Assembly (NCBI GenBank): GCA_021822495.1
Contig: JAKAQO010000002.1
Coordinates: forward strand, 208,667-272,666
Origin: a bacterium
GTDB taxonomy: Bacteria > Elusimicrobiota > Elusimicrobia > UBA1565 > UBA9628
Length of the DNA stretch: 64,000 bases
Direction: 5' to 3'
In this document: positions 34,459 to 50,964 of the stretch, in pieces
Numbering within the stretch: position 1 is the first letter of the stretch
Layout of the letters: every line of letters begins with the position of its first letter
Translations under genes and position numbers: made by a program
Notes under the pieces: model-generated
What the model was told of the DNA's origin: nothing
What the model saw: the letters and a program-made list of their open reading frames with translations, nothing else
Databases searched by the model: none

Positions 34459-35094
34459 TTATTGGTTTCCAATCTGGGCTTTCAACGCGTTCAAATCCTG
34501 ATTCATCCAAAAATCAATGTTATCCTTAAGGATTTTTTGAACCCCAGGATAACGCAAACCCGCGTTACAACCGCCGCGTTCTATTTCGCCGGTTTGGAAG
34601 TTTTCGACCTTGAATGCTATCTCGTTGTCACCGCATCCATTGTCATCAGGTGTCCAGAATCGCCCGAAAGATATAGCGCTGACAGTTGTTTCCCCTGTTT
34701 CGTGAACTTGCGAATTAACATTAAAGTAGAAAGAGTCTATATGAATTTCGTGAGAGTCGCGTTGTTGGAGTATAATCGAAGCGATTAGAGCGAATTTCCG
34801 AATTTGTTCGTGCGTCAGATTGCGTATGACCTGATAATTAGGGGCAATGACCAAGTTTCCATCGGAATTGATTTGCGGCGTTTGGACGCTCGGGGCAAAC
34901 TTCGGCTTGGGCTTTTTCTTGGGTTTCAGATGAAACGAAGCCAGTTCAATCCCGCCAAAAGAATTTTGCGCCGACAAGACCGCATTCTCCATGTTTTGGG
35001 CTCGAACGGAATTAAAAGAAGCGCCCGCCAGGAAAATAATTCCCAGGGCCAACGTTGCTACGCTTAGCTGATTTGCGATTTTTGTCTTTTTCAT
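34459..35094 (-). CDS. Exported protein with duplicated N-module (copy 1), unknown function
   Basis: 211 residues. The signal peptide (ANQLSVATLALGIIFLAGA) and the next ~35 residues to PKKKP match the gene at 35177 almost exactly; after KPKPKFAPS the two proteins share nothing I can align. The C-part has DSFYFNVNSQVHETGE, DNGCGDNEIAF and a final helix; two Cys may form a disulfide. Strong GGAGG site at 35098-35104. No family recognised. Confidence 0.8.
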   Translation of the reverse strand: MKKTKIANQLSVATLALGIIFLAGASFNSVRAQNMENAVLSAQNSFGGIELASFHLKPKKKPKPKFAPSVQTPQINSDGNLVIAPNYQVIRNLTHEQIRKFALIASIILQQRDSHEIHIDSFYFNVNSQVHETGETTVSAISFGRFWTPDDNGCGDNEIAFKVENFQTGEIERGGCNAGLRYPGVQKILKDNIDFWMNQDLNALKAQIGNQ

Positions 35095-35182
35095 TTTTAT
35101 TTCCTCCGATTCTCCGCAAGTCTTACTTCCCTATTATTAAACCATGATTCCGGTTCAATGACCAGGGCCAAAGGTCCTAGAA
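34909..35182 (-). repeat. Duplicated promoter plus signal-peptide module, copy 1
   Basis: 274 bases matching 35672-35939 at about 90% by eye: the upstream CTAGG motif, -10 box, leader and the first ~60 codons. The leader differs by a 6-base indel. The 3' limit of similarity is inside the Lys/Pro-rich stretch of the coding sequence. Confidence 0.88.
35133..35180 (-). promoter_or_regulatory. Promoter with CTAGG motif, copy 1
   Basis: Minus strand CTAGGACCTTTGGCCC at 35165-35180, then 25 bases to TAATAAT (35133-35139). A TTGAAC lies between but its spacing to the box is too short for a standard -35. Drives the gene at 34459-35094. Confidence 0.6.
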
Positions 35183-35857
35183 CTGCTTAGACCAAAAACT
35201 AATTTCTTTTTCGACGAAATCACCTACCCATTCCTTTGAATATTTCGAGCGAAGGATGTTTCCCTTATTATCGACATCCAGAATATATCCGTCTCTCAAT
35301 TCAATTACGACCGTTTGAGGACTGCCATAACCATATACCCCCAACCATTTGACCATAATCAGCGAATCTTCCGTGATACTTGGACGATGCCCCATGAATT
35401 GCCTGTATTCGGAGCAGTAAGGTTGAAGTCCAGAACGTTCGGGGCAATATTTGCCTCCGCTGGGGACGAAGTCCAGTTGATGAGTGAGAGGCTCGGAAAA
35501 AAAACCTCCTCCGTCAGAGAGTTTCATATAATCTTGGCCGCGCCTGCGCATAAGCCGAACCAAGGCGACAAGCTTGTCAAGGACACCCTGGCTGATCCTA
35601 TAATTATGTTTCCTAACGCAATTGTTATCGTTGGGAAAGCCTCCTATCTCCCGACATTCAAGGGCGATTTCGGGTTTTTTCTTGGGTCTCAGATGAAACG
35701 AAGCCAGTTCAATCCCGCTAAAAGAGTTTTGCGCCGACAAGACCGCATTCTCCATGTTTTGCGCTTGAGCGATATTCAAGGAAGCGCCCGCCAAGAAAAT
35801 AATTCCCAGGGCCAACGTTGCTGCGCTTAGCTGATTTGCGATTTTTATCTTTTTCAT
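35177..35857 (-). CDS. Exported protein with duplicated N-module (copy 2), unknown function
   Basis: 226 residues. Same N-module as the previous gene (ANQLSAATLALGIIFLAGAS, then FSGIELASFHLRPKKKP). The remaining ~160 residues are unrelated: RRRGQDYMKLSDGGGFFSEP, KYCPERSGLQPYCSEYRQF and a last WVGDFVEKEISFW. Four or more Cys suggest an exported disulfide-bonded domain. The stop TAG (35177-35179) is the TAG of the CTAGG motif that begins the next promoter. No family recognised. Confidence 0.8.
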   Translation of the reverse strand: MKKIKIANQLSAATLALGIIFLAGASLNIAQAQNMENAVLSAQNSFSGIELASFHLRPKKKPEIALECREIGGFPNDNNCVRKHNYRISQGVLDKLVALVRLMRRRGQDYMKLSDGGGFFSEPLTHQLDFVPSGGKYCPERSGLQPYCSEYRQFMGHRPSITEDSLIMVKWLGVYGYGSPQTVVIELRDGYILDVDNKGNILRSKYSKEWVGDFVEKEISFWSKQF

Positions 35858-35939
35858 TTCCCCCGCTTCTCCGCAAGTCTTACTTCCCTATTATTAAACC
35901 ACGATTCCGGTTCAATGACCAGGGCCAAAGGTCCTAGAA
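35672..35939 (-). repeat. Duplicated promoter plus signal-peptide module, copy 2
   Basis: 268 bases matching 34909-35182. Upstream boundary ends at CTAGAAG next to the stop of the trypsin-like gene; downstream boundary is in the Lys/Pro-rich coding stretch. Distances between copies are 763 bases in the coding part and 757 in the leader. Confidence 0.88.
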
Positions 35940-35960
35940 GATTTCCGGCAAAAGGCCTAG
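35890..35960 (-). promoter_or_regulatory. Promoter with tandem CTAGG motifs, copy 2
   Basis: Minus strand CTAGGCCTTTTGCC (35947-35960), then CTAGGACCTTTGGCCC (35922-35937), then TAATAAT (35890-35896) 25 bases on. The upstream motif supplies the stop codon of the trypsin-like gene at 35957. Confidence 0.6.
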
Positions 35961-36808
35961 TTGCCTGAGTTCCCATTTGAAATCAAATCGGAAAGCGCGC
36001 GGGAATTGTCGTGATCTTGAATGAACTGTTCAATGACGCCGGCGTCTCCTGATAAAGCGGTCGCCATGTTGGCATTTTTCTCGCTATATTTTCCCCCATG
36101 CGTTTCAGGGGTCTTGACCGCGACCTTGATTGCGATAATCGAGTAGCGTCCGCCGTCTTCTGGAATCAAAATAGGTCCGCCGGAATCGCCGGGCTCCGTC
36201 GAACAATCGGTGAGGTAGTAACCGTTTTCGAGGCTCTTCAAGGAACAAGCGGGGTCGACAATTCTATTCTCGTTGGAGTCTCCGGGAAATCCTACCGAGA
36301 CCAGCCTGCCGTGATAATCCGAGGAAATGGCCGCTTGTTGCGGAAGCGCCGATATCTTGAGATAGCCGTAACGATCTCCCAAGGGTTTAGACAAAACCGC
36401 GAGCGCGAAATCCTGAGGATAATTGCCCAGGCAGCCGTGCTTGCCAAAGGCCGCGACAACAGGAACCGGAGCGCCAAACCCTTCTTCCTTGGTCCTGGGA
36501 AAGAAATAAACGCGCTTGGGAACGTTCCCGCTTTCAAGGAAAACGCAGTGGCAGGCCGTCAGCGCGAAATAACGCCCGACTAGTGTCCCGCTACAACGCT
36601 GGGCTTTTTCCCCTGTTTGCTCGAATATTTCTCCAACGGTGGAATAGGGATAATCGCCGCCGTTGTTCACGACCCGCTGATGTCCCTGGAAAAAACTGGT
36701 TTTGAGCCCCAAATTATCCCGTGAGTTGAAATCCGATTGTGCCCAACCCATAAAAGGCCTCAAAAGCAAAACTAAAAAAAGCGCCGAGATTCGCCAATCA
36801 TTCGTCAT
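35957..36808 (-). CDS. Secreted trypsin-like serine protease (S1)
   Basis: 283 residues from the ATG at 36808, with a signal peptide ending near PFMGWAQ. Catalytic His in LTACHCVF, Asp in YPQDFALAVL and Ser in TEPGDSGGPILIP form the chymotrypsin triad; Cys pairs CSGTL/ACHC and CSLK/DCST support disulfides. The frame continues upstream through the promoter motif but the signal peptide demands this start. There is no ribosome site and the -10-like box ends only 7 bases before the ATG, so a leaderless message is possible. Confidence 0.9.
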   Translation of the reverse strand: MTNDWRISALFLVLLLRPFMGWAQSDFNSRDNLGLKTSFFQGHQRVVNNGGDYPYSTVGEIFEQTGEKAQRCSGTLVGRYFALTACHCVFLESGNVPKRVYFFPRTKEEGFGAPVPVVAAFGKHGCLGNYPQDFALAVLSKPLGDRYGYLKISALPQQAAISSDYHGRLVSVGFPGDSNENRIVDPACSLKSLENGYYLTDCSTEPGDSGGPILIPEDGGRYSIIAIKVAVKTPETHGGKYSEKNANMATALSGDAGVIEQFIQDHDNSRALSDLISNGNSGN

Positions 36809-36814
36809 GACTTT

Positions 36815-36859
36815 ATTATTACACGGTTTTGCGTCAACGACCAGGGCCTTTGGACCTAG
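36815..36859 (-). promoter_or_regulatory. Promoter with CTAGG motif before the trypsin-like gene
   Basis: Minus strand CTAGGTCCAAAGGCCC (36844-36859) 22 bases before TAATAAT (36815-36821). Here the AAA centre is inverted relative to the other copies. A further GGCCTTTTGGC lies at 36870-36880. Confidence 0.5.
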
Positions 36860-36909
36860 AATGCCGATAGGCCTTTTGGCGCACAGCTGGCCCAAAAACG
36901 CCGCTTTTA

Positions 36910-49674: not shown

Positions 49675-49743
49675 CTAGGTCCTTTAGCCTGATCACTCCT
49701 AGGCCTTTCGGCCCATGCGTGAATGAAACCCCGCTGATACAAT
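49675..49743 (+). promoter_or_regulatory. Promoter with tandem CTAGG motifs before the 404-residue-type exported protein
   Basis: CTAGGTCCTTTAGCC (49675-49689) and CTAGGCCTTTCGGCCC (49699-49714), 24 bases apart, then 23 bases to TACAAT (49738-49743). Same layout as at 35890-35960. Predicted start near 49750. Confidence 0.6.
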
Positions 49744-49770
49744 AAACTCATGAAGCACGGGGGTTTATCA

Positions 49771-50964
49771 ATGAAAAAACCGCTTACGGCAGTTTCAAAC
49801 ACGGCGTTAATTGCGCTAACCTTGGCGCTGTCTTCCCATTTCGTTTTCGCGATGGAAGAAGACAGTCTTCACGAGAATTTCCCAGATAGAATTTCTCTCT
49901 CAAATGCGGCCTTAAATCCGGGAACAAACCTCCCCTCGAATATTTCCGCTGATGAAGAAATAGGCAACATTTCCGCGGAAGAATTTCTCGTCAATCCCAA
50001 AATGAACGCCCAAGAACTTTCAGTCAAGGACCAAAATAAAACCGTAACGGAAACATCTAACCTTCAAACCCTTTCAAATGCCGCCTCTCAAAAAAAGGCT
50101 TTCTCCGTTCATTCCGCCAAAAGAATGACCGTAAAAGCGCTCCGGCGCGTTCGCTCGGCCGTTTCGGAAAAGATTTCAGACGCCTTGGGAAGCGTCTGGG
50201 CGAAGTTTTTTGACAACGAAAACGCCAGACGGCGCTTAAGCACGGGAAGCCTTGTTCCCGTCGCTTATCAAAACGGAAAAACGCAAAATTTTATTCCCGG
50301 AGAAAAGCGCGCCAAGTTCAATTTACAGAAGTATCGGGAAACTTCTTCCGGAATAAATTCCCAACGCCAAAATGAGCCCCCTCCCCCATCCGGGAACAAA
50401 TCTTCCGCAACAAGAAAGTGGGCAATGAAATTTCTGGCGCTCACCGAATTATCCGCAGGAGCGGTATTCCTGCCGTTTTTGCCTTACCCCTTAGTTTTTC
50501 TGGCCTCATGGGCATTGATCGTCATTGGAAACATGATTGGCCCGCGCGCTCTCCAAAACGCTCTGTCAAAAGGCGAAAAACCCATTCCTAATTGGCGGCT
50601 TTATATGGGGCGGGCCCTTATGATTGCGGGCGCGGGCGGCTATATCTCAGGGCTTGTCGGACTTATAACAGGAACGGGGCTCATCTCGGCGCATGCGGCC
50701 GCAAGCGCCCTTCCGTTTGACACGACAAGTTCTCAAGCCAGCCGAACCCTGCTTGAGTGGCTGATGCGCGGCGCCATCGGCGGCGGGCTCATCGCCAGCG
50801 CTATCGATCTCGCCAAAAACTTCCTTGAAAAAATTCCCTCCGTCTCCGGGAAATTAATTCATGCTAAAATAAATTGGATCGCTTTGGGGCTCTACCTCCT
50901 CATTGGTCTGGGCCTAGGCGCGGTCTTGGGGTTTGGGCTTGGTTCTTTCGCCATTATTTTGTAA
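49771..50964 (+). CDS. Exported membrane protein of unknown function
   Basis: 397 residues from the ATG at 49771, preceded by a GGGGG site; the ATG at 49750 would begin almost at the predicted transcript start. A signal peptide or anchor (TAVSNTALIALTLALSSHF) is followed by ~190 polar residues, then after SSATRKWAMKF about five membrane helices rich in Gly (LIAGAGGYISGLVGLITG is split by loops; IGLGLGAVLGFGLG at the end). No family recognised. Possibly a sensor or pore with an exported N-domain. Confidence 0.75.
   Translation: MKKPLTAVSNTALIALTLALSSHFVFAMEEDSLHENFPDRISLSNAALNPGTNLPSNISADEEIGNISAEEFLVNPKMNAQELSVKDQNKTVTETSNLQTLSNAASQKKAFSVHSAKRMTVKALRRVRSAVSEKISDALGSVWAKFFDNENARRRLSTGSLVPVAYQNGKTQNFIPGEKRAKFNLQKYRETSSGINSQRQNEPPPPSGNKSSATRKWAMKFLALTELSAGAVFLPFLPYPLVFLASWALIVIGNMIGPRALQNALSKGEKPIPNWRLYMGRALMIAGAGGYISGLVGLITGTGLISAHAAASALPFDTTSSQASRTLLEWLMRGAIGGGLIASAIDLAKNFLEKIPSVSGKLIHAKINWIALGLYLLIGLGLGAVLGFGLGSFAIIL

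Follow-up and report, generated by a model that had tools for sequence, protein, structure and literature searches.

The promoters of many exported-protein genes in the bacterial class Elusimicrobia (phylum Elusimicrobiota) share a 16-bp element, CTAGGNCYTTNGRCCC, which is probably the site at which a DosR-like response regulator of the NarL/FixJ family binds to activate a regulon of exported and envelope proteins. The element was described in an earlier note on a 64,000-nucleotide stretch of DNA from an uncultured member of the Elusimicrobiota, part of contig JAKAQO010000002.1 (assembly GCA_021822495.1, positions 208,667 to 272,666), here called the window. That note placed it before four exported-protein genes, and all four sites are present in the window sequence. 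Three are exact copies of CTAGGNCYTTNGRCCC (35165-35180 and 35922-35937 on the minus strand and 49699-49714 on the plus strand). The fourth (36844-36859, minus strand) has two mismatches because the near-palindromic box is reversed there, its plus strand reading CCAGGGCCTTTGGACC.

The 16-base element was real, but the pattern first written for it, CTAGGNCCTTTNGGCCC, was one base too long and for that reason matches the true sites only with two to three mismatches. Owing to this register error a genome scan with the 17-letter pattern at three mismatches gave matches no commoner than those of the reversed control. A further pattern, also out of register, was likewise no commoner than its own reversed control and was dropped. 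In the correct register CTAGGNCYTTNGRCCC matches the window nine times at two or fewer mismatches versus 1.17 expected, a count reached by none of 100 shuffles. As the 35165 and 35922 sites both lie inside one recent 274-bp duplication (92% identical), only three of the four window sites are independent.

Gene regulation in the Elusimicrobiota is little known, and the phylum has cultivated members. In the literature searched, which included few subscription papers, no earlier account of a promoter motif or regulon from Elusimicrobia was found. The present analysis provides a regulon that spans the class, names a candidate for its regulator and defines a box that can be tested. It also connects a recognition code of the DosR type, familiar from the control of dormancy, with the regulation of proteins that are exported or belong to the envelope, and allows exported proteins of unknown function to be grouped by promoter.

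The element occupies a fixed promoter position

The genome of the window (2.2 Mb in 15 contigs, assembly about 95% complete) was surveyed by pattern searches and by inspection of selected stretches, with 20 x 15 kb as systematic background. It contains 36 exact copies of CTAGGNCYTTNGRCCC and none of the reversed control. A narrower form ending in GGCCC gave 24 exact copies and 30 at one mismatch. At two mismatches the correct pattern barely exceeds the control, and only the exact and one-mismatch counts are informative. Sixty sites at zero or one mismatch were inspected, a few of which are distal copies or lie within coding sequence. Random placement across the genome, named beforehand as the outcome that would count against a regulon, was not what was found.

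Alignment of 44 promoters placed the start of the best -10 sequence at +39 or +40 relative to the start of the box in 33 of them (about 3 expected from shuffles), which leaves about 23 bp between box and -10 and agrees with the 22-25 bases given originally. This -10 is an ordinary TANNNT, and no -35 hexamer accompanies it: best fits to TTGACA within the -35 slot have a mean of 2.72 matching bases of 6 versus 2.65 in shuffled sequence, so the absence of a good -35 remarked on in the window holds throughout the regulon. A second box was found at the expected upstream place in 39 of the 44 promoters by a loose criterion (three or fewer mismatches of 14), 28 being direct repeats at -23/-24 and 11 inverted copies at -19 to -21.

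A -10 at +39 predicts a transcription start at about +51, some 36 bp past the 3' end of the box. The predicted positions thus fall within the 30-45 bases downstream that had been anticipated. A start codon stands at +51/+52 in 16 of the 44 promoters and the corresponding mRNAs are predicted to be leaderless, which suggests that about a third of the regulon transcripts may lack a leader (for example those beginning at window positions 36808 and 49750). The genome on which the consensus was refined is also the one that first gave the spacing, so the test in other genomes matters. Some of the promoters are paralogous. As an Rfam search returned only tRNAs, the box does not belong to any known RNA element.

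Most target genes are predicted to encode exported proteins

Signal peptides were called with a simple purpose-made rule, which overlooks some clear cases and has a permissive background of 29%. By this rule 36 of 50 downstream genes encode signal-peptide-like N-termini versus 72 of 252 background genes scored by the same predictor (Fisher p=1.2e-8), and several of the 14 remaining downstream genes also have a signal peptide by eye. The secreted-protein regulon proposed from the window is borne out by this enrichment, and the same pattern is seen in the other genomes described below. About half of the target proteins have no Pfam family. The families recognized are trypsin/PDZ, subtilase, M1 and M48 peptidases, an FtsH-like AAA-M41 protein, two SLT transglycosylases, a Cdc48-like AAA protein, GH15, PLD, ChaN, and pentapeptide and ankyrin repeats. 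The few targets that are not exported are a GGDEF/PAS protein, a receiver-domain protein and a nucleotidyltransferase.

Some targets carry a signal peptide and a long linker before domains that are usually cytosolic or located in the inner membrane (L120:2600-4999, L124:2626-5001, L119:2549-3775 and L108:3-2456). The domains behind these leaders are Cdc48-like AAA, FtsH-like AAA-M41, lysine-decarboxylase-like and Rce1-like.

The element is restricted to one class of the phylum

Among 294 genomes of the phylum CTAGGNCYTTNGRCCC was found in 113, all of which belong to the class of the window (n=189), and in none of the 105 genomes of the other classes. A search of 84,980 species genomes for exact double boxes returned four metagenome-assembled genomes, one of which is titled Elusimicrobia; the double box gave no match in viral contigs.

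An independent set of 51 exact boxes was drawn from 18 other genomes of the class, where 31 of 43 genes have signal peptides. The -10 lies at +38 to +40 for 17 of these boxes, where about 4 were expected, and at +63 for another 5 (1.2 expected). In the latter group the spacing is longer by about 24, and the exact match is apparently the distal box. In G034, a genome of one contig (1,643,562 bases), there are 21 sites at one mismatch versus none for the control, mostly ATAGG or TTAGG variants, and by eye some 15 of 18 genes downstream carry a signal peptide. The arrangement of the boxes varies between families. In G019, which belongs to a different family (f4) of the class, the boxes of a pair are usually mutually inverted and 22 bp apart (C2:239852-239889, C3:115046-115083 and C3:117239-117276), whereas those of the window's genome are mostly direct tandem copies.

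Candidate regulators and their likeness to DosR

Two GerE regulators score above the cut-off in the window's genome, a NarL-type protein of 247 residues (C4, ~82.8-83.6 kb) and one of 238 residues (C11, ~61.3-62.0 kb). In both a receiver domain is followed by a GerE (LuxR-type) helix-turn-helix, the composition of the NarL/FixJ family, and both sequences contain the phospho-acceptor Asp and its partner residues. Compared with solved structures by phmmer, the candidates are nearest to VraR and DevR over their full length (best E 1.6e-39). VraR and LiaR are NarL-type cell-envelope stress regulators of Firmicutes that likewise control envelope functions, although their recognition helix has T where the candidates have N. 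Good orthologues of the candidates are found in 168 of the 189 class genomes. The box is present in 109 of these 168 genomes versus 4 of the 21 that lack a good orthologue (p=8e-5; hand-tallied), and in ten orthologue-lacking genomes the one-mismatch search gave 7 matches versus 66 for the control, that is, no excess.

The likeness to DosR (DevR) of Mycobacterium tuberculosis and to OsdR of Streptomyces extends to the box consensus, the receiver plus GerE composition and the three base-contacting residues. The published DosR consensuses are GGGACTTNNGNCCCT and the weak form RRGNCYWNNGNMM (PMC6448022), and that of OsdR is AGGGCCGATCGGCCCT (PMC5069765). The box, written as AGGNCYTTNGRCC, agrees with the weak DosR consensus at all positions and mismatches the stringent one at the first base; the outer bases CTA/CCC of the Elusimicrobia box differ from the DosR and OsdR boxes. 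DosR contacts bases through Lys179, Lys182 and Asn183 (PMC4082495), which correspond to the K..KN of the KTVKN or KTIKN recognition helix present in both candidates and in the class orthologues. Dev boxes are also closely packed, with the proximal one overlapping the -35 (PMC3029386), as are the boxes described here.

Unlike the DosR regulon of dormancy and hypoxia genes, that of Elusimicrobia consists of exported and envelope proteins. Moreover, the regulator genes have no boxes of their own that would indicate autoregulation, and the HisKA_3-type kinases associated with DosR (DosS/DosT type) and with VraR/LiaR were not found in the window's genome. At its promoters the regulator would work as DosR does, but as kinase, autoregulation and dormancy regulon were all missing, the system was filed as a DosR-like variant rather than as DosR. 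Coordination of envelope and exported functions has also been proposed for sigma-54, and Elusimicrobium minutum is listed among the diderms that lack it (PMC3162934); the promoter type is a different one.

A model of activation and the alternatives

In the mechanism we propose, a regulator dimer would occupy the proximal box (approximately -51 to -36 relative to the predicted start), and a second dimer would usually bind some two helical turns upstream, on the distal box. The two dimers would jointly replace the missing -35 contact and recruit sigma-70 RNA polymerase to the TANNNT -10. The regulon would comprise some 45-50 promoters in this genome, and nearly all of them would serve proteins that are exported or belong to the envelope, among them proteases, transglycosylases and numerous lineage-specific proteins with a signal peptide and a linker. 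The two orphan paralogues at C4 and C11, located elsewhere in the genome, are the likely regulators. The element, its geometry and pairing, the kind of gene it precedes, its distribution and its co-occurrence with the regulator are computational results, from which we infer binding, activation, a need for phosphorylation, a signal that is sensed and transcription starts at +51.

Several observations weigh against assigning the box to these regulators. Four genomes have boxes and no good orthologue (three of them are 90% complete or less), and many orthologue-bearing members of the class have few exact boxes. The correlation across the class is not phylogenetically independent, as the families that lack boxes may represent one or few losses. 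No box at two or fewer mismatches was found in the 3-kb loci around both regulators, which cover about 1 kb upstream, so no positional link joins box and regulator. NarL-type regulators usually have a HisKA_3 kinase as partner, but none was found in the genome assembly, which is about 95% complete. The K..KN of the recognition helix also occurs in further regulators of the NarL type. The comparison with DosR was drawn once the motif had been seen and was then checked against papers.

The box might instead be bound by an activator of another family, either CRP/FNR or a type that escaped detection. We consider this unlikely, although the regulator genes are unlinked to the box, the DNA-binding families tested are a part of all such families and the window's genome encodes three CRP-type proteins above the cut-off. 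The box agrees with the DosR consensus but not with the CRP consensus TGTGA-N6-TCACA. Moreover, several box-bearing gut genomes, among them G010, G019, G044, G040, G022 and G098, have no CRP-type protein above the cut-off; G010 lacks such proteins altogether. CRP was therefore rejected as the general regulator.

That the box is a repressor operator, through which the regulator holds the genes off, is improbable: boxes near the -35 can occlude polymerase, but these promoters have no -35 hexamer with which to function unaided and their boxes are positioned like the activating Dev boxes (PMC3029386). The earlier note had left open the choice between an activator-dependent promoter and an alternative sigma factor. 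The first is supported by the pairing of the boxes, their use in either orientation, the fixed distance to the -10 and the missing -35. The second, in which the element would be the -35 part of the promoter, shares the fixed distance and the missing TTGACA but is very improbable. A sigma factor reads its -35 in a single orientation and copy, whereas the 36844 box is reversed, the boxes are usually paired as direct or inverted copies and the -10 is an ordinary TANNNT. A functionless repeat spread by duplicated promoter and signal-peptide cassettes would account for the sites within recent duplications and for the shared N-termini, but can be practically dismissed: at most of the 44 promoters the flanks and genes are unrelated although the spacing is the same, and further families of the class show the pattern too.

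A broader and more doubtful possibility is that one orphan response regulator without a dedicated kinase acts as a general switch of much of the exported proteome throughout the class. Export might then be marked at the promoter, on mRNAs that start with ATG, and cassettes of promoter and signal peptide might be copied as units onto new domains.

The promoters of the window

The second copies recorded upstream of two of the window sites were confirmed, at 35945-35960 (minus strand) and 49675-49690 (plus strand), and a third that had gone unrecorded lies at 36867-36882. Upstream of the gene at 34459-35094 (minus strand), which encodes a 211-residue exported protein with a signal peptide and without a confident Pfam domain, the proximal box CTAGGACCTTTGGCCC (35165-35180) is followed by the -10 region TTTAATAAT (35133-35141), which begins 39 bp past the box start; this -10 was read from the sequence with the geometry of the 44 promoters. 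The duplicate of this box at 35922-35937, also CTAGGACCTTTGGCCC, belongs to the gene of a 226-residue exported protein (35177-35857, minus strand) and has its distal box, the direct repeat CTAGGCCTTTTGCCGG, 23 bp upstream at 35945-35960. The trypsin-like exported protease of 283 residues (35957-36808, minus strand) has the proximal box in reversed orientation, CTAGGTCCAAAGGCCC (36844-36859), which pairs with the inverted distal box ATAGGCCTTTTGGCGC (36867-36882, read on the plus strand). Its -10, TAATAAT, lies at about +38 and its ATG at +51, so that the start codon coincides with the predicted transcription start.

On the plus strand the proximal box CTAGGCCTTTCGGCCC (49699-49714) is preceded by the direct repeat CTAGGTCCTTTAGCCT (49675-49690), 24 bp upstream, and followed by the -10 TACAAT (49738-49743), 39 bp past the box start. 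The gene served (49750-50964) has its ATG at +51 and encodes a protein of 404 residues with an N-terminal signal peptide, a linker and later membrane segments.

The two exported proteins of 211 and 226 residues are near-identical over the first 60 residues of the latter and unrelated in the remainder. The duplicated 274-bp cassette (34850-35182 and 35660-35939, minus strand) starts at the proximal box and stops about 30 codons past the signal peptide. It thus contains box, promoter, signal peptide and a linker of about 30 codons, and the C-terminal domains beyond it are unrelated. Shared N-termini like those of this cassette are found elsewhere in the genome at C10:3558, C10:7291, C14:697 and C15:138659. 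The C-terminal part of the 211-residue protein resembles that of the C3:99748 protein (L125:1678-2466; NSDGxLV...LTxEQxxKF), the N-termini of the two being different.
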